From a virus: DNA of 64,000 nt. The translations under genes were made by a program, and so were the position numbers. Below are positions 206 to 35,539 of this stretch, piece by piece (position 1 is the first letter of the stretch; each line of letters opens with the position of its first letter). The DNA lies in IMG/VR virus record IMGVR_UViG_3300025469_000003, positions 27,923-91,922 of that record. One strand, 5' to 3'. The notes beneath the pieces were generated by a model, which searched no databases, was not told the DNA's origin, and was given only the letters and a program-made list of their open reading frames with translations.

Positions 206-632
206 TGGGGTCTCCTGTCTGAATGACTACGCCAGTCGCTCCGTTTGGACTCGACGGTGAGGTTGGAAAGATCACGCATTGTAGCAGCCTCAGAAAGTCT
301 ATCCAGTTCATCGTGACCATCGGCTCCGTCTTATTGCGAGAGTGAATGAGAAGGAGCATGAAAGCACTGTTTTGGTAGACCTCTTTATAATCCTGAAACG
401 TCTTGGCGACGTTTAGATGCTCGACGTTTTTGCATTCTATATTGAATGGCAATATCTTACGAGCCGCCGGGCTGAGCATGATGTCGGAAAAGCCTTCTCC
501 GCCTTGCGTAGCCATTGGCCGTGATACGATGTCATCAGCCACTAGGCCAAGATTCTTCACAAGCTGTAAAAGATCGAAGGCTACTCGTTTCTGTAGCCTA
601 CGGCCTTTTGCTTTGCAACTTGATGTTTTCAT
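189..632 (-). CDS. PD-(D/E)XK endonuclease (resolvase/VRR-NUC-like)
   Basis: Predicted small nuclease of 147 residues. The fold is suggested by an Asp in GEGFSDIML followed 12 residues later by ECK, the D...ExK arrangement of PD-(D/E)XK enzymes such as phage Holliday-junction resolvases, with a basic N-terminus (GRRLQKR). I chose the ATG at 632 because it follows GGAGGG and forms an ATGA overlap with the stop of the upstream gene; a longer frame to 698 would run into that gene. It is the last-but-one gene of a translationally coupled set with the primase-helicase, so a role in replication or recombination is inferred. The substrate is not predictable. Confidence 0.7.
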   Translation of the reverse strand: MKTSSCKAKGRRLQKRVAFDLLQLVKNLGLVADDIVSRPMATQGGEGFSDIMLSPAARKILPFNIECKNVEHLNVAKTFQDYKEVYQNSAFMLLLIHSRNKTEPMVTMNWIDFLRLLQCVIFPTSPSSPNGATGVVIQTGDPNEASA

Positions 633-1198
633 GAACAACCCTCCGTCCAATTCATGCAAACGTAACACGCTCCGTTGCGAACGGTGATGGCCCCGCAATC
701 TTTGCAGGCTGGCGCGTCTGTAGTTTGTGTAGAAATGGTGACGCCTTCAGGGTGCTCAGCGGAGATAAGCATGGCTCCGGCAGATTCGTTTGACGACGGG
801 GGCACAGCCTTTTTATTTTCTTGTTGTTGTGATGGGGGCTTAAGGAATTTAGAAATAAGCCATCGCCCAACATAGTCCATGGGACTTTTAGCAAATTTTA
901 TATCTTGATTTTTCGTCCATCCGCTAGGCTCGAACCGTGTGTGAGCGAGCTTGCTGCACAAGTCTTCCAGCGGCACACCGTATTGCAGCGCAAGAGAAGC
1001 AACAATGGCAAAACAGTCCATCACGCCTGAGATTGTTGAACCTTCTTTGGACATGTTAATGAAAAGTTCACCGGGAGTTCCGTCTTCGTATAGACCTACA
1101 GTGATGTAGCCTTCGTGACCGGCAATGTCCATCTTGTGAGTGATGGCTTGACGCTCATTGGGCAGCCTACGGCGTTCTGGCATTGGTTGAGTCCTCAT
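629..1198 (-). CDS. Stand-alone C-terminal (TSCPD) domain of B12-dependent ribonucleotide reductase
   Basis: 189 residues. The middle part (about 15-120) reads like the TSCPD domain at the C-terminus of class II, adenosylcobalamin-dependent ribonucleotide reductase (NrdJ): GELFINMSKEGSTISGVMD, then LAHTRFEPSGWT and DYVGRWL. The tail has CKDCGA and CYVCMNWTEGCS, resembling the Cys-rich redox tail that re-reduces the active site. In known enzymes this is fused to the catalytic barrel; some bacteria split it (NrdJa/NrdJb). No catalytic part is visible in this window; it may lie left of base 1 or be supplied by the host. It overlaps the primase gene by ATGA, so it is co-expressed with replication. 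Confidence 0.75.
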   Translation of the reverse strand: MRTQPMPERRRLPNERQAITHKMDIAGHEGYITVGLYEDGTPGELFINMSKEGSTISGVMDCFAIVASLALQYGVPLEDLCSKLAHTRFEPSGWTKNQDIKFAKSPMDYVGRWLISKFLKPPSQQQENKKAVPPSSNESAGAMLISAEHPEGVTISTQTTDAPACKDCGAITVRNGACYVCMNWTEGCS

Positions 1199-3354: not shown

Positions 3355-3713
3355 TTGTTTATCCTCAGCCCGAGTTTGCGCCGGAGCTTCCGGCACATGA
3401 TCTCGAATTTTTCCCTAAGCTCATCGGTCTCGTTGGCGTAGATCGTGTGCGAGCCGATGCGGATAGCGTAGTGTGGGCCTTTCGGCGGAGCATCCTCAAG
3501 ACGCGAGGCATACGAAGTAAAGTAGTTCCAGCGTTCCAAGCTGTTCATTACCGCCACTTGCTTTGCATCAAGACCTAGCAGCGCCATTGGACCCCCTTCT
3601 TTACCAGTAGAGGCCGGTGTTACCCGGCCCCACCCGGCTCCGCGTCGGCGTGACGAAGCATACACCCCAATCTTGCCCGTCGAAACCGTAACAGGCCCAC
3701 AATAATCAGCCAT
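3351..3713 (-). CDS. Hypothetical basic protein
   Basis: 120 residues from ATG 3713 (site GTAGGGAAATT just upstream); a longer frame to 3791 has no better start. Features visible are an Arg/Gly-rich segment (SSRRRGAGWGR), a region ending in IGSHTIYANETDELREKFE that may be helical, and a basic end (CRKLRRKLGLRINK). No family recognised. The first codons are repeated in inverted orientation at 3798-3819 on the opposite strand. Confidence 0.55.
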   Translation of the reverse strand: MADYCGPVTVSTGKIGVYASSRRRGAGWGRVTPASTGKEGGPMALLGLDAKQVAVMNSLERWNYFTSYASRLEDAPPKGPHYAIRIGSHTIYANETDELREKFEIMCRKLRRKLGLRINK

Positions 3714-3819
3714 AATTTCCCTACGGTCATGGCACGATGTTGTCTGTATACGCCTTGCTTTGCAACACACGTCTAAGAACTTGCCTAACAACTAGGGTAT
3801 GGCTGATTATGGTGGACCT
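3692..3819. repeat. Inverted repeat carrying two divergent start codons
   Basis: The minus-strand start of the 120-residue gene (3692-3713, encoding MADYCGP) and the plus strand at 3798-3819 (encoding MADYGGP) are 22-nt inverted copies differing at about three positions, with an 84-nt centre. The plus copy opens only a 15-codon frame ending at TAA. This could be an inverted duplication of a gene start or an operator-like symmetrical site. Confidence 0.6.
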
Positions 3820-3854
3820 GCGGAGGCGGTGAACGCCGTCCATTAAACTCGGTA

Positions 3855-3874
3855 GGGGAGTCCTTCGACTCCCC
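3855..3874. terminator. Perfect hairpin, terminator-like
   Basis: GGGGAGTC, loop CTTC, GACTCCCC: an 8-bp perfect stem in the 3714-4020 gap. No T-run follows on either strand, so it could be a processing or attenuating structure rather than a classical terminator. The next bases (TACGCA TT TGCGTA near 3890) form a second small hairpin. Confidence 0.4.
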
Positions 3875-4020
3875 ATCCTTGTATGCAAACTACGCATTTG
3901 CGTAAAGCACCTTCGTGTTTTTCGCAGTTAGTTTTGAGAGTTGATTTCGGAAGTCTCCCACTCCCGGCTCAAATAAGCGCCGTTTCCTCTTACCCCGGTC
4001 GATGCCATTATACCCCCGTA

Positions 4021-4154
4021 TGGTGGAGGTAGAGAGAATCGAACTCTCGTGTCGTTGTATAGTCATACGGCCTGTTTATGAGCGTACTTTATAATAGCTC
4101 TCGGCGGACCAGAACGCCGGGCTACTGCCAGTACCAAGGGGCCTCACGGCCTCC
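4021..4154 (-). ncRNA. 134-nt RNA with tRNA-like 3' end (T-arm, acceptor strand, CCA)
   Basis: On the minus strand the 3' end is a near-perfect tRNA half: T-stem/loop GAGAG TTCGATT CTCTC, acceptor strand TACCTCC, discriminator A and encoded CCA. The 5' end is GGAGGCC, pairing over 5 bp with CCTCC. Between them there is no normal tRNA body: there is a GGCC-GTGA-GGCC tetraloop hairpin, a CGGCG...CGCCG stem and about 50 extra nt. At 134 nt it is too long for a class I or II tRNA and too short for a normal tmRNA. A strong promoter ends 19 nt upstream, so it should be transcribed on its own. Confidence 0.65.
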
Positions 4155-9768: not shown

Positions 9769-9964
9769 CCATCCTCTTCAGCTTAGCTTGCAGTTTTTCT
9801 ACACGATGTTCGATACGAGAAACCCATACAGTACCAGAACGTTTCCATCCATGTGTCTCCCAAAAACAGGCCTCGTGTAGCCTAGCTTTCAGGCGCTCAC
9901 GCCTGACGTAGTTTTTGATGATGGCCAACAGCGCATTCTGCGTTAGGGGTTTAGACTTCGTCAT
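9755..9964 (-). CDS. Hypothetical basic protein
   Basis: 69 residues from ATG 9964 (site GGAGTCCA); rich in Lys and Arg with two probable helices (LLAIIKNYVRRERLKARLHEA and IEHRVEKLQAKLKRM), perhaps a short coiled coil. It overlaps the end of the RNA ligase gene by 14 nt and the following amber-interrupted gene. Function unknown. Confidence 0.6.
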   Translation of the reverse strand: MTKSKPLTQNALLAIIKNYVRRERLKARLHEACFWETHGWKRSGTVWVSRIEHRVEKLQAKLKRMDENY

Positions 9965-11183
9965 TGGACTCCTCCGCGTGATAGGTGCCCTGTGAGAAGA
10001 ATTCTGCCCGCGCCGGACGCAGTATCTTCCAAATAACTTTGGCGTAGTCCTTTCCATCGTACATCAAAAACAGTACAGGCGCTAGGAATATCATTTCGGG
10101 GCCTTCCGCCGGATGCTGCATCAACACCTGCTGTTTGAAAAACTCGGCCACGGCCTTGCGATTCCAATCTCCCCGGCTTCCGGCGATGCGAGCTAGCGCG
10201 ATGCTCTCCTGCTCGATGTACTTGAACATCAGCGTGTAATATGCAATCTTGCCGGTCAGCCATTCGGTGAACTCAGGCGGAGTGAACGGAGTCAACGAGG
10301 CAACATCAATAGTCTTGCCTTGGCTCAGCGTCTCCCACACATCACGGTTCGTCATCCCAAACATCGCCCGGTGACTCAGCTTGTAGTTCTCGAACTTGAT
10401 TTTGACGCGCAGAGGAGCCTTGTGAGGAATCGCCAGCGACCAGTTCAAAGGTTCCGACTCCTTCAATCGGATGTAGCCTCCGTGCGAAAGGAATTTAGCT
10501 ACGTATCCTTCGCGGTTTTTGTCGTTCTCTTCCGCACACTGTGCAACAGTCTTGGTAAACAGGGGCACGAGTTCCAGACCGAAGTATCGTCCGTTGTCGA
10601 ACGCCATTTCTTCGTAGGCCAACTCTTCGCCGGTCTCTTTGTAAATCACTGCGAAGAGCACCAGAGACTCGCGTTTGCCGTAGTCTACTACGATCTGGTT
10701 GCCCGGCATGATGATCTCCACCAGCAACGTTTGATGGCGCGGCATCTGGAAGCAGGGCAGAGCTTGCAGGAAGGCAGTAGCCCACTTCGCTTGCTCGCTG
10801 TCGAAGGACCCGCGAGTCGCCACTTCCGGCGGATTGTCCTTGTACTGGAAAATGACGCCCATGCTTCCGTCCATCTTCTCGGTGATCTCGATCTTGTTCT
10901 TGAGAGGATTCAACGGAAGGTTGTCCAGCATCGTCTCCGGGTAGCGCGTGTCATTGATGTTGAAGAAAGCTTCCATTGGCCGGGCCACGATCTCCCCGGT
11001 CTCCCGGTCCACGATCAGACCACGGCAGCGGCGGAGCGTAACATCGTCATGCGTCTTCGTCATCGCTTCGCTCGTATAGTTGTATATGTCTAAAGGCCAT
11101 TTGGGATGAGGGCGTTTAGAAACAAGCCCGTTAGAAACTCCTCCTTCTAGCTCATTTGCATCGACATATTGATTAAGTAGCAT
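9951..11183 (-). CDS. RNA ligase, T4 Rnl1-like
   Basis: 410 residues. The nucleotidyltransferase motif TEKMDGSMG places the AMP-accepting Lys at about 103, close to Lys99 of T4 Rnl1; upstream RGLIVDRETGEIVARPMEAFF is the typical strand before it, and downstream LVEIIMP and EGYVAKF fit motifs III-IV. T4 Rnl1 repairs tRNA cut by host anticodon nuclease. The start is ATG 11183 after GGAGGTTAC; the frame continues to 11339 but that part is the antisense-free shadow of the adjacent HNH gene. The gene follows an HNH gene with an 11-nt overlap. Confidence 0.88.
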   Translation of the reverse strand: MLLNQYVDANELEGGVSNGLVSKRPHPKWPLDIYNYTSEAMTKTHDDVTLRRCRGLIVDRETGEIVARPMEAFFNINDTRYPETMLDNLPLNPLKNKIEITEKMDGSMGVIFQYKDNPPEVATRGSFDSEQAKWATAFLQALPCFQMPRHQTLLVEIIMPGNQIVVDYGKRESLVLFAVIYKETGEELAYEEMAFDNGRYFGLELVPLFTKTVAQCAEENDKNREGYVAKFLSHGGYIRLKESEPLNWSLAIPHKAPLRVKIKFENYKLSHRAMFGMTNRDVWETLSQGKTIDVASLTPFTPPEFTEWLTGKIAYYTLMFKYIEQESIALARIAGSRGDWNRKAVAEFFKQQVLMQHPAEGPEMIFLAPVLFLMYDGKDYAKVIWKILRPARAEFFSQGTYHAEESNDEV

Positions 11184-11568
11184 GTAACCTCCGAAGATGC
11201 AATGCACGTTTCTTCCATTGATGATTCCAACATAGAGTTTGAAGCCCTTTTTGACGCTCTCTATGGAAGAGCCAAGAATACAACTTCGAGCCATGCATTT
11301 GGCCTTTGCGTCGTTGGTATGCGCCATCGTTGTTGACATGATCTAATGTCAACATATCTAAATCGATTTGGCTACATCCACGCCAACAACATTTTGCTTC
11401 TCCGTCCTTTCCGTAACGAGCTAGAACAATGTTCTTTGTTTGTCGCTGGTGTCTGAAGTTTATTCGGCAGCGAGAGGCTTTTCCTTTAGATGTTCGGAGA
11501 TATTTTTTCTGTGCGGCTTTTCCTTTAATGCCACCATTGTATTTTCTAACTGTTTCTTTTCTGTTCAT
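11173..11568 (-). CDS. HNH homing-type endonuclease, six-copy family, copy 1
   Basis: 131 residues. Signature: CCWRGC, then IDLDMLTLDHVNNDGA (the HNH His is in LDHV) and LQTLCWNHQWKKR near the end. This family occurs six times in the window. The N-terminus is basic (KYNGGIKGKAAQKKYL). It is inserted immediately before the RNA ligase and its 3' end overlaps the ligase start by 11 nt without disrupting it, as expected of a free-standing homing gene. Start ATG 11568. Confidence 0.85.
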   Translation of the reverse strand: MNRKETVRKYNGGIKGKAAQKKYLRTSKGKASRCRINFRHQRQTKNIVLARYGKDGEAKCCWRGCSQIDLDMLTLDHVNNDGAYQRRKGQMHGSKLYSWLFHRERQKGLQTLCWNHQWKKRALHLRRLHAT

Positions 11569-15512: not shown

Positions 15513-15673
15513 TGTTCATCTCCTCGAATTTAATTTCAAAAGACGCATGACGTTGTAGGCGTCCTCCACGCCTCGTTATCCTTCGCTGGCAGGCACTTCT
15601 TCCTTACTACTCTGCTGAGCATTGATGTGATCTCCCTCAGTCGGTCCAACGACTCCGGCCATGCGTCTTGTCT

Positions 15674-15747
15674 TGGTTTCCGGGGCTGGACTCGAACCAA
15701 CGTTCTCAGGTTCAAAGCCTGATGTCCTACCATTGGACGACCCGGAA
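15674..15747 (-). tRNA. tRNA-Gln (TTG)
   Basis: Complete cloverleaf on the minus strand: acceptor TTCCGGG/CCCGGAA (7 bp), D-arm GTCC AATGGTA GGAC, anticodon arm TCAGG CTTTGAA CCTGA with anticodon TTG, T-arm GTTGG TTCGAGT CCAGC, discriminator A and encoded CCA. Decodes CAA. Confidence 0.92.
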
Positions 15748-15752
15748 AAAAT

Positions 15753-15839
15753 TGGTGGGGTGTAGTGGAGTCGAACCACCTGCCCACAAGTGAGCACGGG
15801 TTTACAGCCCGCCCTAGTCGCCAGTGCCAGTCACACCCC
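15753..15839 (-). tRNA. tRNA-Tyr (GTA)
   Basis: Acceptor GGGGTGT/ACACCCC, anticodon loop CTGTAAA (GTA), the long variable arm normal for bacterial tRNA-Tyr, T-loop TTCGACT, encoded CCA. It is 5 nt from tRNA-Gln, so the two are probably processed from one transcript. Confidence 0.9.
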
Positions 15840-15850
15840 GAAAAAGAAAG

Positions 15851-16157
15851 TGCTGAGGGTAGATGGAGTCGAACCACCACAGAGGCTAGGCGCTGTACAC
15901 ACGGAGCTAGCCTCCATCCGCTTTTATTGCTACTGGATTTCACAAGGTTCCTGCCTCGCCTCAGCGCATAACTGGCGGCTTCGAGGAATGGGATTCGAGA
16001 CCCACTATACGAAACAATTACCGGGCTTAATCCGGCACGTAACCGCATACCGAACGCAACTGCGTTGTGCCTATCCACAAGGCGCTCCAAGGATTTGAGG
16101 TCTTACGTCTATCAGTAGCCTATTTAGCGTTGCATCTGCCGATTCTGCCATACCCCC
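15851..16157 (-). ncRNA. tRNA-Leu-like gene with about 200-nt insertion in the anticodon arm
   Basis: Minus strand: a 5' half (GGGGGTA acceptor, TG, D-arm GCA GAATCGGCAGA TGC, class II Leu style) begins at 16157. A 3' half (AGCG, a long variable hairpin GAGGCTAG...CTAGCCTC, T-arm GGTGG TTCGACT CCATC, acceptor TACCCTC, A) ends at 15854. The two acceptor strands pair 7/7 with one G-T. CGCT (5') and AGCG (3') can close the anticodon stem, then GCTACTG/CAGTAGC continue the helix around a structured domain. No U33 is obvious, so the splice point and anticodon are unknown. Confidence 0.6.
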
Positions 16158-16301
16158 GAAAAGGTTTTGGGGAAAGATGAGTGGTGAGGATTTCGCTTTC
16201 GGTTTCGTCCCGGCCTATCCTCTAGGGCTAGGGCGAAGCTGCGCCGTTGATTCGAGCCTAAGCGATGTCTTGCCCGTACGGGCCTCACCTTCCCCCAAAC
16301 T

Positions 16302-16386
16302 TGGTGGCGATAGAGGGAGTCGAACCCACACGGTTTTACCCACTGGTTTTTGAAACCAGCGCGTCTGCCAGTTCCACCATATCGCC
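16302..16386 (-). tRNA. tRNA-Leu (CAA)
   Basis: Acceptor GGCGATA/TATCGCC, D-arm with GG, anticodon arm CTGGT TTCAAAA ACCAG (CAA, reads UUG), class II variable arm, T-loop TTCGACT, discriminator A, encoded CCA. Confidence 0.92.
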
Positions 16387-16395
16387 TGAAAGATT

Positions 16396-16478
16396 TGGTA
16401 CGGGGAGAGGGCATCGAACCCCCATGGTTGCCCACTGGTTTCTAAGACCAGCGCGTCTGCCAATTCCGCCATCCCCGC
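16396..16478 (-). tRNA. tRNA-Leu (TAG)
   Basis: Acceptor GCGGGGA/TCCCCGT (first pair G-T), anticodon arm CTGGT CTTAGAA ACCAG (TAG, reads CUA), class II variable arm, T-loop TTCGATG, encoded CCA. Its body is a close relative of the neighbouring tRNA-Leu (CAA), suggesting duplication. One arm of a 23-bp inverted repeat ends 4 nt before its 5' end. Confidence 0.9.
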
Positions 16479-16481
16479 ACA

Positions 16482-16738
16482 CGAGAACATTCGGCAGAGT
16501 ATCGTTACTCTTTTCTCGCAGTTCCTACCGGATTTGAAAAAAGAGAGTATGGATTTCACTTTGTTCCTGCCTACGCCTAGCCCGCATGGGGTTCGGACCC
16601 ATGTTCCTGCGGTATATTCTGCCCGCAGTGTGCTTCCTGCATCGCCGGTTTGCCCCGGCTAGCCTATGTCTACACTAGCGGTAAGGTTTCGGTCTTACGT
16701 CTCTCACACTTTTTGATACTCTGCCGAATGCTCTCGTT
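16482..16738. repeat. 257-bp unit closed by a 23-bp inverted repeat
   Basis: ACGAGAACATTCGGCAGAGT at 16482-16501 (arm continues ATC to 16504) is matched by its inverse at 16716-16738 with one mismatch. The right arm lies inside the 49-residue gene; the left arm abuts tRNA-Leu (TAG). Between them is a tRNA-like fold and edge motifs shared with the domain inserted in the interrupted tRNA-Leu: AGACGTAAGACC, and GGCAGGAAC plus GTGAAATCC. Confidence 0.7.
16578..16661 (-). ncRNA. Degenerate tRNA-like RNA inside the inverted-repeat unit
   Basis: Minus strand: TAGCCGG and CGGGCTA can form an acceptor stem (6 of 7 pairs); D-arm GCA AACCGGCGA TGC; T-arm ATGGG TCCGAAC CCCAT with C instead of the invariant T55. 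The middle is too long for an anticodon arm: CTGCGG, 10-nt loop, CCGCAG, with no usable U33. No CCA. Likely not an aminoacyl acceptor as it stands. Confidence 0.5.
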
Positions 16739-16819
16739 CTGTGGCAGCCAGGCGGCCGCCTGAGAGGCAAGCTCAAAACAGAGCTGACGGAAGCTCTCGA
16801 TAGTAAGCCAATTGATCAT
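16670..16819 (-). CDS. Hypothetical small protein
   Basis: 49 residues (MINWLTIESFRQLCFELASQ ... TLPLV) from ATG 16819, overlapping the upstream stop as ATGA. Amphipathic helix at the start, basic near the end (SIKKCERRKTE). Its 3' third contains one arm of the 23-bp inverted repeat and the AGACGTAAGACC edge motif, so coding and structured-RNA signals overlap here. No family recognised. Confidence 0.55.
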   Translation of the reverse strand: MINWLTIESFRQLCFELASQAAAWLPQNESIRQSIKKCERRKTETLPLV

Positions 16820-17022
16820 TGACCAGAAAGCTTGCGTATGGTCTCGCCGTAGTCCCTGACGGCACGGCTGACTGCCTCTGCGACAACTGGATTCCGACGC
16901 TCTGGAATGCCCGGGATGGTCAGGGTGGCGATTATTGGATCTGCGTAGAATTGATACTTCAAGGCCACCTCACCGCCCACAGTGATTTCGAATCGCTCAA
17001 TCTTTCTTATTCTTATTTCCAT
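16816..17022 (-). CDS. Hypothetical small protein
   Basis: 68 residues from ATG 17022 with a strong site (GGAGAGGGCG). Beta-rich first half (IRIRKIERFEITVGGEVALK), helical end (VVAEAVSRAVRDYGETIRKL). ATGA overlap with the next gene. Function unknown. Confidence 0.65.
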   Translation of the reverse strand: MEIRIRKIERFEITVGGEVALKYQFYADPIIATLTIPGIPERRNPVVAEAVSRAVRDYGETIRKLSGQ

Positions 17023-17050
17023 CGCCCTCTCCTTCGTTGGCTTGGTTATC

Positions 17051-17167
17051 CTACTCCTCCAGCAACTCGGAAATCCTCTTTCTCTCAATCCACTTAAACC
17101 CAGCATAGCTCGTCACTAAAGCGATGTCCACGTCTCCGCCCGCGGTTTTTGAAGTTGCGACGATCAT
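17051..17167 (-). CDS. Hypothetical small protein, possibly leaderless
   Basis: Reading MIVATSKTAGGDVDIALVTS ... RISELLEE, 38 residues from ATG 17167; an in-frame ATG at 17185 would add six. The upstream ATG lies inside the promoter spacer, so the 17167 start, 8 nt after the -10 box, is preferred and implies a leaderless or nearly leaderless message. No family recognised. Confidence 0.5.
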   Translation of the reverse strand: MIVATSKTAGGDVDIALVTSYAGFKWIERKRISELLEE

Positions 17168-17175
17168 AACTTCCC

Positions 17176-17204
17176 ATGTTACCATACCTCCAATCCCTTG
17201 TCAA
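17176..17204 (-). promoter_or_regulatory. Sigma70-type promoter
   Basis: Minus strand: -35 TTGACA (17199-17204), 17-nt spacer containing GGAGG, -10 TAACAT (17176-17181). It faces the small genes 17167 to 16670 and the tRNAs beyond. Confidence 0.7.
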
Positions 17205-17335
17205 CTGGTTTTTTTTGGGCGGTCGGAGTCGGATACTCCGAAACAGCAGCCTCGCATCGGCCAACGCTTTACGTGGCCTTCGCCTGCAAGTCCATCGCAT
17301 CTGCTGTCAGCTTGCAGCCTCCGCCCAAATCTATT

Positions 17336-17410
17336 TGGTGCGCCCGGATGGATTTGAACCACCGGCTTCCTGCTTGTAGGGCAGGCACTCTTCCGCTGAG
17401 TTACGAGCGC
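17336..17410 (-). tRNA. tRNA-Val (TAC) with C33
   Basis: Acceptor GCGCTCG/CGGGCGC, T8-A9, D-arm ACTC AGCGGAA GAGT, anticodon arm CCTGC CCTACAA GCAGG (TAC), T-arm GGTGG TTCAAAT CCATC, encoded CCA. The base before the anticodon is C instead of the nearly universal U33. Confidence 0.87.
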
Positions 17411-17411
17411 A

Positions 17412-17505
17412 TGGCGGAAGGTGCTGGATTTGAACCAGCGGGTCCCTTTGAGGGGGACCAACGGTTTAGCAAACCGCCGCATTCGACCATCTCTGCCAAC
17501 CTTCC
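17412..17505 (-). tRNA. tRNA-Ser (GCT)
   Basis: Acceptor GGAAGGT/ACCTTCC, anticodon loop TTGCTAA (GCT, reads AGC/AGU), long class II variable arm GGTCCC...GGGACC, T-loop TTCAAAT, discriminator G as expected for Ser, encoded CCA. Two nt from tRNA-Val. Confidence 0.92.
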
Positions 17506-17511
17506 GTAAAC

Positions 17512-17583
17512 CGCGCAGTGCGGGAGTCGAACCCGCCAGTAACGGCTTTGCAGGCCGTTGCCTAGCCGATTGGCTTCCTGCGC
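17512..17583 (-). tRNA. tRNA-Cys (GCA), overlapping the DNA ligase gene
   Basis: Anticodon arm ACGGC CTGCAAA GCCGT (GCA), T-arm GCGGG TTCGACT CCCGC, acceptor GCGCAG/CTGCGC. Position 8 is not T and no CCA follows, so host CCA addition is needed. The first 22 nt are also the last codons of the upstream ligase gene (stop TAG at 17562-17564). Confidence 0.82.
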
Positions 17584-18623
17584 GTAGTGAACGCCACATT
17601 TCGTTTCGGACGCTCGGGAGCGTGAGCCAAATTTTCAAGCGGCACTCGCTCGATAGGAATGTTCTGAATAGCCGGACCGGGCACGTTCAAACGTCCGGTA
17701 GGGCTAGGAGCGTCCATGTCCAACTTGCTACGCCAGCCAAGGAAGATTGCATGACGTGGTTTAACCTTGGCACCATGTGGAAAGTGTTTGTACTTCATGA
17801 TGCGACCGTTGTAGGCCAGTGGGTTCGCTTGCAGTTCTTTCCACATCTTGCGTCGCTGGCGCATCGTGAATCCGACGCCGACCTCGAACTCGACTTTGCT
17901 CTTGCAATCACGTACTAGAAACCGGCCAAGCAAAGGCAGAGGCACCTTACCAGCTTTGGACAGGGACCTCTTCGTATGGCCGAGGGCGTTCTTGAACGCA
18001 GCATTGGCGTTGTGATAGAGGGGTAGAAAATCATAGACCTCGGCGTCTGCGTCAACAAACCTCTTCACCTTTAGCAGCCAGCCTTCCCGCTCTGTTGACC
18101 GGCCATGCTTGTACGGACCTTGCGGGTCCCGGACCATCACGCCCTCGCCGCCATGGGCTAGAACGTCTTTCTCGAAGGCCCGCAACTCAGCCACACAGAA
18201 TACGAGGGTCTGGCGGACAGCTTTAACACTGAAAGACAACGGACCCATAGCAGTAACAGCATAGCAATAATCTTCGTACCGTTGCTCGAAAGGCTTGTCC
18301 TCTACCTTGTCGAATACGTAAAAGTCAACGTCTGCGCCACGGGAATCATGTTCACTCATGACGATGGAAAGCGTGAGGCAGTAGCAATCCTTTGCATTCG
18401 GGTCGCCGTAAATAAGCTCTCCGTCCAGACCCGGCTCTGCCCTGCGAAGTTTTTCCTGCACAAATTCGTTCGGAATCAGATTCATACTGCGACTCATAAC
18501 AACCGAGGCAGTATTATCTTCCTTGTGAATAAACGCACGAATCCCGTCCAGCTTCACAGAGGCATAGACCGGGTAGCGTAACTTTTTCACATTGCTTGTC
18601 TGTGTTGCCAACATCACCTGCAT
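17562..18623 (-). CDS. ATP-dependent DNA ligase
   Basis: 353 residues. Motif I SVKLDGIRA puts the adenylated Lys at 24; GLDGELIYGD (motif III-like), GEGVMVRDP (motif IV) and WLLKVKRF (motif V) follow in order, then an OB-fold tail with FEVGVGFTMRQR. It seals nicks in replicating phage DNA using ATP. The last seven residues are encoded inside tRNA-Cys. Start ATG 18623. Confidence 0.9.
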   Translation of the reverse strand: MQVMLATQTSNVKKLRYPVYASVKLDGIRAFIHKEDNTASVVMSRSMNLIPNEFVQEKLRRAEPGLDGELIYGDPNAKDCYCLTLSIVMSEHDSRGADVDFYVFDKVEDKPFEQRYEDYCYAVTAMGPLSFSVKAVRQTLVFCVAELRAFEKDVLAHGGEGVMVRDPQGPYKHGRSTEREGWLLKVKRFVDADAEVYDFLPLYHNANAAFKNALGHTKRSLSKAGKVPLPLLGRFLVRDCKSKVEFEVGVGFTMRQRRKMWKELQANPLAYNGRIMKYKHFPHGAKVKPRHAIFLGWRSKLDMDAPSPTGRLNVPGPAIQNIPIERVPLENLAHAPERPKRNVAFTTRRKPIG

Positions 18624-21198: not shown

Positions 21199-21296
21199 GA
21201 TGCCTCCTCGCGGGACCGGGCTTACAACCGGCCTGCCGCATTACAACACTCATAGACTAGGACACGCTAGCCGGTGTATGAATGCTGTGTTCTGCG
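21199..21296 (-). promoter_or_regulatory. Intercistronic structured element, copy A
   Basis: Minus strand: CGCAGA starts directly after the previous stop codon; a variable hairpin (ACAC/GTGT with GCTAGC in the loop); TAATGCGGCAG; then the hairpin GCCGG TTGTAAGC CCGG just before the ribosome-binding site. CGCA and TGCG can pair as an outer stem. Confidence 0.75.
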
Positions 21297-21530
21297 TTAC
21301 TTGCGAGGTTTTAAAAAGACGATGTACAATTCATAGAATGATAAACCTACAACTAATACTGTTAGCCATCCTTGAACTGTAATACAGTCATTAAAAAAAT
21401 CATTGGTTGTAAACAAATGATGATGATAGCGCCACAACCATGTTTGTACCCAGTCTAAGAATGTTATGATTGTATTCTCGATTGGGAAAGTCTCGTGAAG
21501 CCAGTCCAAAAAGTTTATGATATAATTCAT
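21297..21530 (-). CDS. Membrane protein
   Basis: 77 residues, Trp/Phe-rich N-terminus (INFLDWLHETFPIENTIITF) and a clear transmembrane helix near the C-terminus (WLTVLVVGLSFYELYIVFL). The segment FLDW is repeated 20 residues later. ATG 21530, site AGAGGGTACA. Its TAA touches element A. Confidence 0.65.
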   Translation of the reverse strand: MNYIINFLDWLHETFPIENTIITFLDWVQTWLWRYHHHLFTTNDFFNDCITVQGWLTVLVVGLSFYELYIVFLKPRK

Positions 21531-21612
21531 TGTACCCTCTCATGAAGAGCGTGGCCGGGCTTACAACCGGCCTGCCGCATTAAACCCGCACAGTATGCGG
21601 GTTCCGTCTGCG
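21531..21612 (-). promoter_or_regulatory. Intercistronic structured element, copy B
   Basis: CGCAGA after the stop codon; variable hairpin ACCCGCA TACTG TGCGGGT; TAATGCGGCAG; terminal hairpin GGCCGG TTGTAAGC CCGGCC; then AGAGGG and ATG. Confidence 0.78.
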
Positions 21613-22245
21613 TTAATGGATATAATATGATACATTCTTAACTGTGTTTGACCAGCAAGCACGGCATGTATCACAACGTCCACCTTGATTGGGAGCCGGA
21701 CATGCAAAGCCGATAGGAGCGGAATAACGCTGTACAGTAGAGGTTGTTAATTGAGTAAGGCCCTTTGGCTTGCAACCATGATCTATGATATAAGCTGACA
21801 ACCGGATTGTCAGGTTAGTAGGGATTGTTCCACCCTCAGCAAGAAATTTTCTCACTACATTAAACTCCTTGGTGGGCATCCAATGCTGGCACCAAGGGGT
21901 TGCATTAACAAGAGAAATTATCTGCCGTAGATGTGCTACGCTCTGAAGATCGCCTGCATCATGCCATCTAAAGTACGACTTGCCTTTTAACATTGTAACC
22001 ATAGCCTCTTGCCATTGTGGATGCTGAAGTGCTTTCAATTTGAAAGCACGAAAAGGATCAACATTTTTTGCAAAAGCTTTTGCATAGCCCTTCCTTGCAT
22101 AGCAATGAGCGCAAGGCGAGTTAGGATTACTGCGGAGAGTTTTTCCCACATGGCAGGAATCACAGGGCAGTGTGTATGACCCGCACGGCAACTTATTGTT
22201 AACGTAAATCTTTCCTACAATCTTTTCAGCTTGTTTCTTAGTCAT
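21613..22245 (-). CDS. GP88-like phage protein
   Basis: 210 residues resembling the Gene product 88 family of mycobacteriophages: CDSCHVGKT and CAHCYARKGYA near the N-terminus, SYFRWHDAGDLQ, WCQHWMPTKEFN, LTIRLSAYIID, and FACPAPNQGGRCDTCRACW at the end. The Cys pattern suggests a metal or Fe-S cofactor. The biochemical role of GP88 is not established. ATG 22245 after AGGAGGAAC. Element B follows its stop. Confidence 0.75.
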   Translation of the reverse strand: MTKKQAEKIVGKIYVNNKLPCGSYTLPCDSCHVGKTLRSNPNSPCAHCYARKGYAKAFAKNVDPFRAFKLKALQHPQWQEAMVTMLKGKSYFRWHDAGDLQSVAHLRQIISLVNATPWCQHWMPTKEFNVVRKFLAEGGTIPTNLTIRLSAYIIDHGCKPKGLTQLTTSTVQRYSAPIGFACPAPNQGGRCDTCRACWSNTVKNVSYYIH

Positions 22246-22340
22246 GTTCCTCCTAATTGCCGGGCTTACAACCGGCCTGCCGCATTACAACACTCATAGA
22301 CTAGGACACGCTAGCCAGTGTATAGATACTGTGTTCTGCG
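22246..22340 (-). promoter_or_regulatory. Intercistronic structured element, copy C
   Basis: Nearly identical to copy A: CGCAGA, hairpin with ACAC/GTGT around TGGCTAGC, TAATGCGGCAG, hairpin GCCGG TTGTAAGC CCGGC, then AGGAGGAAC and ATG. Confidence 0.78.
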
Positions 22341-22344
22341 AATG

Positions 22345-22665
22345 CTAATCCCACCAAAGACGAAGTTTTCCACCAATTATGTTGTATTCATCTTCCCCAA
22401 GCTCGTGTTCTTCAATAGAGTTTGGTTCGACATAAACACACACACTGTATTCGCGGGCAAGCAAAACGTCGCCTTTGATGCGTCCTAACAAGTCCGCTGT
22501 AAAGTTGTTATAGCCATCCGGGACAGCCTTTGCCATGATCTTAACTGCCACGTCGGACGGCACACTTTGAAATGCACGAAAATGAAGATTACGTGTTTCT
22601 TCAGTATATGCAGCAATTACTTCATCTGCCACAGTTTTGTACTTATTTGGTATCCTTGTAACCAT
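22345..22665 (-). CDS. Hypothetical protein
   Basis: 106 residues from ATG 22665 (site GCGGAGGTGATAC). Helical N-terminus (YKTVADEVIAAYTEETRNLH), beta-rich end with acidic patch (EEHELGEDEYNIIGGKLRLW). No family recognised. TAG is followed after 4 nt by element C. Confidence 0.6.
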   Translation of the reverse strand: MVTRIPNKYKTVADEVIAAYTEETRNLHFRAFQSVPSDVAVKIMAKAVPDGYNNFTADLLGRIKGDVLLAREYSVCVYVEPNSIEEHELGEDEYNIIGGKLRLWWD

Positions 22666-22767
22666 GTATCACCTCCGCGTAGCCGGGCTTGTAACCGGCT
22701 TGCCGCATTATCGCACCCGCCATGAATTATACGCCTAGTAGTAGAGGCTAAGGTGCGTCACTCTGCG
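22666..22767 (-). promoter_or_regulatory. Intercistronic structured element, copy D
   Basis: CGCAGA; variable hairpin with different stem CGCACC/GGGTGCG and a long arm; TAATGCGGCAA; hairpin GCCGG TTACAAGC CCGGC; then GGAGGTGATAC and ATG. Confidence 0.72.
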
Positions 22768-22778
22768 AACTCTATGAC

Positions 22779-22904
22779 TTACTTAGTATATTTCTTCCCT
22801 GTCTCTGCAAATATTTCGCCTCTCAGGGTTGCTTCATCGAAACGTGGATACTGGCAGGGAAATGCTTTCGTTCTCCATGTATCCTTTGTTGTATCTGTTT
22901 TCAT
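22779..22904 (-). CDS. Small hypothetical protein
   Basis: 41 residues (MKTDTTKDTWRTKAFPCQYP ... GKKYTK) from ATG 22904, site AGGGTGATTT. Charged and probably soluble. Lies between elements D and E and so forms its own cassette. Confidence 0.55.
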   Translation of the reverse strand: MKTDTTKDTWRTKAFPCQYPRFDEATLRGEIFAETGKKYTK

Positions 22905-23005
22905 AAATCACCCTATGATACGTGGCCGGGCTTGTCACCGGCCTGCCGCATTAAGGCGGGGCATACCGCAACATCTTGTATGCCGGACTCCGCCTTGACT
23001 CTGCG
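22905..23005 (-). promoter_or_regulatory. Intercistronic structured element, copy E
   Basis: CGCAGA directly after a TAG; variable hairpin AAGGCGG/CCGCCTT with inner GGCATAC/GTATGCC; TAATGCGGCAG; hairpin GGCCGG TGACAAGC CCGGCC; then AGGGTGAT and ATG. Confidence 0.75.
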
Positions 23006-23076
23006 CTATTTCCGAATCTCCAACAGCGTGCCATCGGGTCCAAATCGACCGCGATACAATCGTGGCCGGGCATAGG

Positions 23077-23400
23077 CTACCTCACTTTCACCACGATGCC
23101 GTTCTTCAATTCGGCCTGCGCATACCACGTATGCGCCGCAGGAGGATACGTTCCGCTATACGTTGGTGGTTGCGGCCGGGCTGCCCAATAGTGTGGACCT
23201 TCCAAGCAAGTCGTGCCTTCAGTTGGTTCGTTGCCACCAAATGGTCCGGGCTGATAGATGCGCACAGGACGCGCCAGTGCAGCTTCGGGGCCAACAGTAA
23301 GAGCAAACACCGGATCGGCGATTGCTTTCAAATGATCGTTCCAGTTTTTCACGGCTTCCTTGAGTTGCTTTTTCGTTTTGAAATTGATTGTAGTATACAC
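23077..23400 (-). CDS. Hypothetical protein, GTG start
   Basis: 107 residues. The frame is open to 23451 but those codons are element F; GTG 23400 follows GAGGTGG at the normal place after the element, so I start there (VYTTINFKTKKQLKEAVKNW...). Helical N-terminal third, Pro/Tyr-rich end. The 71 bases between its stop and element E (23006-23076) hold no clear gene, though a short frame (TLLEIRK) ends exactly at the element. Confidence 0.55.
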   Translation of the reverse strand: MYTTINFKTKKQLKEAVKNWNDHLKAIADPVFALTVGPEAALARPVRIYQPGPFGGNEPTEGTTCLEGPHYWAARPQPPTYSGTYPPAAHTWYAQAELKNGIVVKVR

Positions 23401-23483
23401 GGGCCACCTCAGCGGTTTTAAATTGCCGGGCTTCGGACCGGCTAGCCGCATTAGACCCGCACAGTATGCGGGTGCCGTCTGCG
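23401..23483 (-). promoter_or_regulatory. Intercistronic structured element, copy F
   Basis: CGCAGA; hairpin ACCCGCA TACTG TGCGGGT as in copy B; TAATGCGGCTA; hairpin GCCGG TCCGAAGC CCGGC (loop differs); then GAGGTGG and GTG. Confidence 0.75.
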
Positions 23484-33905: not shown

Positions 33906-33931
33906 CCCAACTTTCCTTGGAGTGTGCGTTC

Positions 33932-35539
33932 GTGGCGAAGGAATTGACGTTTGGAAAAGATGCACGTAATAGGATGCTCATTGGCATCAATGCAGTAGCT
34001 AGGCTAGTCTCGGCTACTATTGGTCCTAAAGGTAGATGCATTGTAGTTGAGCGGGTTGTGACTAATCCTGCTACGAAAGAAGTTGTAAAGCTGTCACCAG
34101 TGACTACAAAAGATGGGGTGTCTGTTGCGAGAGCCATTTCACTTCCAAATGCTACAGAAAATTTAGGCTGTGATCTTATTCGAGAAGCAGCCCTTCGTAC
34201 AGTGCAAGAGGCGGGTGATGGCACCACTGCCAGCGTCATACTTTCTCAGGCAATTATTTCTGAGGGGATGAAGGCGCTGGAAAAAGGAGCCAGTCCGGTT
34301 TTCCTACGGTCAGGGATTGACAAGGCTACTGCGAAGATAGTTCAACAACTCGCGCAGATGTCAACGCGCTATGACGGCATGGGTCTGGATGTAGCCCGCA
34401 TCGCGGCGAATGGCGATGAAGAAGTTGCTAAGATTGTAACTGAAGCCTTACAAATGGCTGGTAAGAACGGCATCGTTAGCGTCGATAGTTCGCGCACAGA
34501 CAAGACGCACATCGAGTTTTCTGCCGGGATGAGATTTGATTCCGGGTTTCGGCATCCTGATTTCATTACGGATTTTTCACGAAATGAGTGCGTTCTTGAA
34601 AATCCGTTTATACTCTTGCACGAGCGCCGCATTCAGAGCATTGGAAAGATAGAGCCTTTGCTCGCCGCAGTAGCTCAGGCAGGCCGTTCGATCCTCATTC
34701 TATCAGAGGAATTTGAATTGCCGGTAATGGCGCTGTTATTACAGAATCGCGCTGTGCTGCGCTCGTGCGTCGTAACAGCACCTTGGTATGGTGAGCGCCG
34801 GAGAGATTTTCTTTCTGACTTAGCAGCCTTTACAGGTGGCATTAGTATTGTAGAAGAACTTGGTCTTGATCTGTCTAAATGCGACTTGAGTGTCCTTGGA
34901 CAGGCCGAGCGCGTCGTGGTGACGCGAACTAATACCACGATCATCAAGGGTAAGAGCAAGGGCAATGAGTTGGCGCAGCGAATCGAATCGCTTTCCAGCG
35001 CCATTGCTTCGACGGAGAATCCTTACGACAAGGAAATTCTGGCTGAGAGGTTAGCGAAGTTGGATGGAGGTGTGGCCGTTATTAAAATAGGCGCTCCAAC
35101 GGAATCTGAGGCTAAGGAAAAAAGAGATAGAACGGAAGACGCCGTGTTGAGTGTGAAATGTGCTCAGGAAGACGGCACAGTTCCGGGAGGAGGAATTGCT
35201 CTTTTACGTTGTCAAGAGAGTGTAAATTTCTCGGGTGAAAAACTACACAATGAAGAGCTTGTTGGAATAGGCATTGTTTTTCATGCTCTTGAGGCTCCAT
35301 TAAAGCAGATTTTGGAAAACGGCGGTTACAATGTCAAGGATACGATGAAGTGCCTTAAAGGGCGGGCAGATTCAATTGGCTTTGATGCTTTGTCTGGCGA
35401 AGTTGTTGACATGCGGGACAAAGGCATAATGGATGCTTCAAAGGTTGTCAAACAAGCACTTATCAATGCAGCTAGCCTTGCTGGCACATTTTTGACTGTG
35501 GCAGGAAGCATCGTTAATTTGGAGGCAAAGGGTGCGTAA
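33932..35539 (+). CDS. groEL: GroEL-type chaperonin
   Basis: 535 residues from GTG 33932 (VAKELTFGKDARNRMLIGIN), aligned with the normal GroEL N-terminus; GGAG lies 10 nt upstream. Group I signatures: TIGPKGR, TKDGVSVA, AGDGTTAS (ATP site), and TVPGGGIALLR in the second equatorial half. The C-terminal Gly-Gly-Met tail of cellular GroEL is absent (ends NLEAKGA). It is quite divergent. Phage chaperonins fold capsid or other virion proteins; a groES lies 384 nt downstream, separated by a broken HNH gene. Confidence 0.93.
   Translation: MAKELTFGKDARNRMLIGINAVARLVSATIGPKGRCIVVERVVTNPATKEVVKLSPVTTKDGVSVARAISLPNATENLGCDLIREAALRTVQEAGDGTTASVILSQAIISEGMKALEKGASPVFLRSGIDKATAKIVQQLAQMSTRYDGMGLDVARIAANGDEEVAKIVTEALQMAGKNGIVSVDSSRTDKTHIEFSAGMRFDSGFRHPDFITDFSRNECVLENPFILLHERRIQSIGKIEPLLAAVAQAGRSILILSEEFELPVMALLLQNRAVLRSCVVTAPWYGERRRDFLSDLAAFTGGISIVEELGLDLSKCDLSVLGQAERVVVTRTNTTIIKGKSKGNELAQRIESLSSAIASTENPYDKEILAERLAKLDGGVAVIKIGAPTESEAKEKRDRTEDAVLSVKCAQEDGTVPGGGIALLRCQESVNFSGEKLHNEELVGIGIVFHALEAPLKQILENGGYNVKDTMKCLKGRADSIGFDALSGEVVDMRDKGIMDASKVVKQALINAASLAGTFLTVAGSIVNLEAKGA

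Follow-up and report, generated by a model that had tools for sequence, protein, structure and literature searches.

We describe a small three-way-junction (3WJ) RNA, a covarying RNA family that is absent from Rfam 15 and is associated with the tRNA arrays of phages and with the strand of these arrays. It is present in the window, the stretch of 64,000 nucleotides analyzed here (positions 27923-91922 of a 92-kb virus record), where a split tRNA-like gene that we call element A carries an insert whose ends, as read from the sequence, are the junction strands of this RNA in the order P1-AUAGAC-P2-GGAA-P3-GAAAUC-P1. Rather than a conventional intron, the 3WJ probably represents a new family of small non-coding RNAs, and we lean toward the reading that element A is a stable, tRNA-scaffolded phage non-coding RNA with the 3WJ as its functional domain. 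The evidence for a structured insert comes from a second copy in the window, copy B, and from covariation over 31 homologues. One small RNA module recurs in anticodon, D, and T arms across unrelated phages, giving the tRNA-like genes that annotation tools drop in large phages a common, testable core and bearing on the old question of the role that stable RNAs other than tRNAs, such as T4 RNAs 1 and 2, play in the tRNA clusters of phages.

Seven minus-strand tRNA genes lie between 15674 and 17584 of the window, with element A, also on the minus strand (16157-15855), among them (Table 1). A first-pass annotation had described two tRNA-like halves on one strand around an insertion of about 200 nt, and this is confirmed. 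By sequence alignment, both outer halves are tRNA-derived beyond chance. The 5' half reaches a local alignment score of 16 with the tRNA-Leu(TAG) of the window (maximum of 11 in shuffles), in agreement with the Leu type first assigned to it; the 3' half is closest to tRNA-Tyr (score of 17; maximum of 10 in shuffles). The acceptor strands pair at all seven positions, as had been proposed, and no CCA is encoded at the 3' end. The two helices that had been read as one continuous helix around the insertion, CGCT/AGCG (4 bp) and GCTACTG/CAGTAGC (7 bp), are both present, with a 6x6 internal loop (AAATAG/AATAAA) lying between them.

Table 1. Positions in the window of the parts of element A, of copy B, and of the repeat around copy B
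Feature	Position	Strand	Basis or remark
Element A acceptor stem, 5' strand GGGGGTA	16151..16157	-	Read from sequence; 7/7 pairs with 15855-15861, one G-U
Element A D arm GCAGAATCGGCAGATGC, 3-bp stem, Leu-like	16132..16148	-	Read from sequence
Element A CGCT, lower anticodon-arm helix, 5' strand	16126..16129	-	Pairs with AGCG 15919-15922
Element A P1, 5' strand GCTACTG	16113..16119	-	7/7 pairs with CAGTAGC 15929-15935; P1 covaries across homologues
Element A junction strand AUAGAC (J1/2)	16107..16112	-	Near-invariant in 31 homologues
Element A P2 domain, enlarged to ~155 nt, with GCCGG hairpin	15952..16106	-	Folds; hairpins common to copy B with pair changes
Element A T-arm-like hairpin GTGGG-TCTCGAAT-CCCAT, within P2	16005-15988	-	Fold; shared with copy B
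Element A GGAAC-CTT-GTGAAATC: junction strands GGAA and GAAAUC around 2-bp P3	15936..15951	-	Exact family consensus
Element A P1, 3' strand CAGTAGC	15929..15935	-	Pairs with GCTACTG; covariation
Element A AGCG, lower anticodon-arm helix, 3' strand	15919..15922	-	Pairs with CGCT 16126-16129
Element A long variable arm, 11-bp outer helix ATGGAGGCTAG/CTAGCCTCTGT	15879..15917	-	Minimum-energy fold; 15917-15907 paired with 15889-15879, 11 bp
Element A T arm GGTGG-TTCGACT-CCATC, normal	15862..15878	-	Sequence; repeat family D1
Element A acceptor stem, 3' strand TACCCTC, then AGCA	15855..15861	-	Read from sequence
Copy B of 3WJ: P1 AGTGTG/CATACT, AGAGAC, GGAAC-AAA-GTGAAATC	16546..16710	-	Outside any tRNA
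Inverted repeat around copy B, 5' arm, 23 nt	16715..16737	-	Pair I1
Inverted repeat around copy B, 3' arm, 23 nt, 96%	16481..16503	-	Pair I1

The folding energy of element A is unremarkable (z of -0.9), so that the case for structure needed comparison, and the constrained tRNA-like fold lies 4.4 kcal/mol above the minimum. No other-strand or coding explanation was found for element A, the overlapping open reading frames being short frames that cross the tRNA array. A deletion in the near-identical phage L002 has removed all of the element A region along with several tRNAs, indicating that element A is not essential. At about position 3830 of L002, this deletion joins tRNA-Leu(TAG) to sequence that lies downstream of tRNA-Gln.

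Copy B lies about 0.6 kb from element A. Searching the window for GGCAGGAACNNNGTGAAATCCA with 3 mismatches gave two occurrences, compared with 0.03 expected by chance. The end motifs common to A and B are AUAGAC or AGAGAC on the 5' side and GGCAGGAAC-NNN-GUGAAAUCC on the 3' side, and the junction of copy B departs from the family strands by the single change in AGAGAC. Both copies also contain the GCCGG hairpin and the T-arm-like hairpin. The sequence of P1 differs between A (GCUACUG/CAGUAGC) and B (AGUGUG/CAUACU) and yet pairs in both, indicating that the copies are under selection for pairing. Element C (16292-16165, minus strand) was considered as a third copy and rejected, since its junction does not fit and the covariance model R1 gives it 2.9 bits; it is a structured stretch that has two helices, GGGGGAA/TTTCCCC and GGTGAG/CTCACC, and carries GCGAAATC toward its 3' side, and its likeness to the 3WJ is superficial. 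A further stretch on the minus strand at 17334-17226 has a tRNA-like layout, with a GGGCGG...CCGCCC hairpin and a CGGAG-TATCCGA-CTCCG arm, and matches nothing in ARAGORN or Rfam.

With the exact ends of A and B as the query, only L002 was matched, and homologues were reached only by loosening a junction consensus. This consensus was taken from the compact 3WJ of the Tunturiibacter phage Tunturi_3, an isolate reached via its terminase (31% identity), in which AGAAGAGG-AUAGAC-hairpin-GGAGC-ACC-GCGAAAUC-CCUCUUCU adjoins a tRNA-like sequence and a permuted tmRNA; this 3WJ lies at 87915-87974 of PP885686. Scans of IMG/VR with the loosened consensus returned 101 unique matches, about 35 of them with helices; most of these diverged homologues lie within tRNA arrays of phages, on the same strand as the tRNAs. 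Some copies, such as L194 with ACGUAAuuUUACGU, have a longer P3 hairpin, from which R-C...G-Y can be recognized as a helix, so that the motif is a three-way junction, P1-AUAGA(C)-P2-(G)GAA-P3-GAAAUC-P1.

In an alignment of 31 members, 76% of cells are paired compared with 55% after shuffling, and the covariation score is 0.523 compared with 0.156 for shuffled alignments and at most 0.14 for slid controls. Two-sided pair changes occur in P1 (7/7) and P2 (4/5), and P3 changes from A-U to G-C. Because this alignment was partly chosen for stems, a fairer test is a permutation control on 87 non-redundant matches picked by junction sequence only and not by stems. A P1 of at least 4 bp is present in 25 of these 87, compared with 2.5 expected when the 3' flanks are permuted (maximum of 9 in 2000 permutations). 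For 15 of the 25, tRNA genes lie no more than 2.5 kb away: 131 share the strand of the match, and 1 is on the opposite strand; the 49 matches without P1 have 14 nearby tRNAs in all. About 16 junction bases are nearly invariant, and the helices vary freely.

The model R1, which usually finds one or two copies per phage record, scores homologues with a short P2 at 24-50 bits and also recovers copies outside its building set (33 bits at G001:26495 and 31 bits at G012:174324). It found no 3WJ in Tunturi_4 or Tunturi_5. Elements A and B receive only about 12 bits, over the 3' part, because R1 models a short P2, and the enlarged P2 of the A/B type is seen only in the phage lineage of the window. The assignment of A and B to the family rests on their exact junction strands plus P1; in element A, P1 with its closing G-C is present and the junction strands and P3 are exact. 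Among 49 matches to GGCAGGAACNNNGTGAAATC in bacterial genome contigs, neither the AUAGAC strand on the 5' side nor a convincing 3WJ was seen in any, which gives no sign of a common cellular RNA. Rfam 15 assigns no family at an E value of ≤10 to elements A and B and nothing up to an E value of 5 to the homologues in L194, L204, and L221. A blastn search of element A, L204, and L205 against named phages gave nothing useful. A text search of the literature found no earlier description of the 3WJ, although descriptions outside Rfam and the literature covered may exist.

The 3WJ occupies several positions relative to tRNA-like bodies; these arm placements were read by eye, with no program confirming each arm. 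It lies in the anticodon arm in element A, L268, and L209. L213, L198, and L286 have it in the T arm of a tRNA-Pro-like RNA whose ACCA end is encoded, and L204 has it in the D arm of such an RNA. The exact layout of element A is shared by only two or three other copies, and many others lie beside tRNAs. A 7-bp acceptor with an ACCA end encloses the 3WJ in L213, L204, L198, and L286. We used only these four hand-checked cases because the overall counts are close to the permuted range: enclosures by 7 bp plus NCCA number 13 of 39, only modestly above permutation (mean of 5.9, maximum of 12), and the stricter count (score of at least 15) is 8, within the permuted range (mean of 3.7, maximum of 9). 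Copies also occur outside tRNAs (B, Tunturi_3, and L195), and a second copy in L210 has a tRNA-like body as its P2. In Tunturi_3 and in L206 (there within a 28-bp inverted repeat), the 3WJ is directly 3' of a tRNA-like sequence with a 4-nt anticodon loop. Further, two copies in one 265-kb phage (L400/L404) are each directly 3' of a permuted tRNA-like sequence with an extended anticodon stem, in the order 3' half, 4-5-nt loop, 5' half. The 4-5-nt anticodon loops or permuted halves of these neighbors indicate that decoding is not their job. A tRNA model match of 40 bits over 142 nt in L194 (667-808) contains an insert of about 70 nt that is not the 3WJ.

Several known RNAs resemble parts of this arrangement. 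Bacterial Y RNAs (YrlA, RF02553), with Ro60, combine a domain that mimics tRNA with another that binds protein, and element A likewise has a tRNA-like part and a separate domain. No YrlA is found in the window, and the best score in L194 is 21.7 bits against a cut-off of 69. TROVE (Ro60) genes are present in 2 of 27 records with a 3WJ, the record of the window being without one; they lie at G005:141198-142199 and G016:7442-8164, the latter about 6 kb from a 3WJ. RtcB is found in 2 of the 27. As obligate partners of the 3WJ, Ro60, RtcB, and Rnl1 are not general (2, 2, and 7 of the 27 records, many of which are fragments). T4 stable RNAs 1 and 2 (rnaC and rnaD) are also short, stable RNAs encoded within the tRNA array of a phage, and rnaC, as read from its sequence, has a T arm of tRNA-like form that carries a long insert; as candidate homologues they were rejected, having no 3WJ consensus and no R1 match. 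GOLLD (RF02032) and other large ornate RNAs are structured non-coding RNAs in the same kind of array, but GOLLD is far larger than the 3WJ and has no sequence or model match to it. L199, which also carries a 3WJ, has a GOLLD at 578-1065 (minus strand) overlapping a tRNA-Asn call. The introns of Lak megaphages (Devoto et al. 2019, PMC6784885) likewise interrupt tRNA genes of phages and belong to no assigned class, and one of them may contain a tRNA of its own; they were inferred from intron-less alleles, whereas no such alleles are known for the 3WJ. As homologues, the Lak introns were set aside, the best R1 score in Lak-A1, A2, and C1 being 16 bits (E value of 0.37), which is not significant.

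In the reading that we favor, the tRNA-like body of element A (acceptor, D arm, long variable arm, and T arm) would come from the phage's own tRNA-Leu/Tyr-type genes, and the 3WJ domain would take the place of the anticodon loop. Element A would be transcribed with the tRNA array, and its body may direct end processing and stability through RNase P, RNase Z or an exonuclease, and CCA addition. The 3WJ, a nearly invariant junction with variable helices, would then be the working part, the one that acts or that recognizes a protein, an RNA, or a ligand. Our working guess is a non-coding RNA like the T4 "species 1" RNA, possibly directed against host translation or a tRNA-cleaving defense. With a copy in the cultured phage Tunturi_3, expression, processing, and the binding partner are directly testable. 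A bolder proposal is conceivable and in our view doubtful: the 3WJ would form a functional RNA class not known before, either a new ribozyme or a new element inserted into tRNAs through a splicing or permutation pathway of its own, and phages would attach it to tRNA bodies at will.

It is unlikely that the 3WJ represents a new type of intron, cut out by itself or by a nuclease, with the halves joined by a phage RNA ligase into a working tRNA. The phage does encode a T4-Rnl1-type RNA ligase (window 9951-11339), as found in 7 of 27 records with a 3WJ, this phage included; Tunturi_3 has an annotated RNA 2'-phosphotransferase, and the tRNA introns reported in Lak megaphages offer a precedent (PMC6784885). 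However, a ligase is undetected in most 3WJ records, many of them fragments, and the three Lak genomes have no significant R1 match. With introns allowed, ARAGORN calls element A as a tRNA-Thr(TGT) with a 224-nt intron, using the AGCG in TACAGCGCC (~15896-15888) and not the one proposed in the first-pass annotation; splices that keep CGCT/AGCG (15922-15919) are never called as a tRNA, and those with the AGCG of TACAGCGCC are permissive calls. The absence of U33 noted at first pass extends to every spliced form of element A, and the reported lack of a group I core agrees with the group I/II intron models, which have no match at an E value of ≤10 over 15640-17600. The 6x6 internal loop is not a bulge-helix-bulge (two 3-nt bulges flanking a 4-bp helix), and by our reading, taking the 3WJ out of the T arm in L213, L198, or L286 leaves no T loop. 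The variety of 3WJ settings, including a D arm and places outside tRNAs, the missing U33, and the T-arm cases all argue against an intron, so that the anticodon-arm intron first suggested is not supported; the alternative suggestion of a new insertion type fits an insert that belongs to a covarying family absent from Rfam 15.

At least as improbable is a self-cleaving ribozyme or an RNase recognition element that cuts the polycistronic tRNA transcript. A compact 3WJ of the size of known small ribozymes, with its set of near-invariant junction bases and with copies between same-strand tRNAs, would suit such a role, and five Twister-P5 matches lie between other genes of the phage. Hammerhead and other small ribozymes are three-way junctions of similar size with conserved junction strands, but the phage 3WJ does not combine the hammerhead strands CUGANGA, GAAA, and NUH, and no Rfam ribozyme matches at an E value of ≤10. 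Moreover, the conservation points to no cleavage site, phages usually have one or two copies though their arrays reach about 28 tRNAs, and a processing element need not sit within tRNA-like arms. We give still less credence to element A being a decayed tRNA hit by an unrelated mobile copy of element B, with no joint function. The 5' and 3' ends and inner hairpins common to A and B, and the loss of the region in L002 of the window's lineage, are consistent with this account; against it, the acceptor, D arm, T arm, lower helix, and P1 of A are all intact, P1 has changed between A and B with pairing kept, tRNA-like sequences and the 3WJ are combined independently in unrelated phages, and a mobile element's terminal features and coding genes were not found. 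The tRNA-like ends around a long structured insert had also suggested a tmRNA-like molecule, a reading that we regard as refuted: the insert matches the 3WJ family, Rfam shows no match at an E value of ≤10, ARAGORN finds no tmRNA there, no tmRNA tag had been seen at first pass, and a separate permuted tmRNA (RF04321) is encoded elsewhere in the phage, at 3890-4083 on the minus strand (64.8 bits).

Other features of the phage were observed alongside. An apparent second, diverged permuted tmRNA lies at 3654-3867 on the minus strand (19.5 bits; E value of 0.083); its acceptor is GTGGGCCT/AGGTCCAC, and ATAATCAGCC/GGCTGATTAT closes a loop. The five Twister-P5 matches fall between small genes at 21216-23483 (minus strand), and a sixth Twister-P5-like stretch, not reported by Rfam, is present at about 22250-22330. 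The window also contains a phage-encoded chaperonin Cpn60 of 540 amino acids at 33917-35539 on the plus strand.
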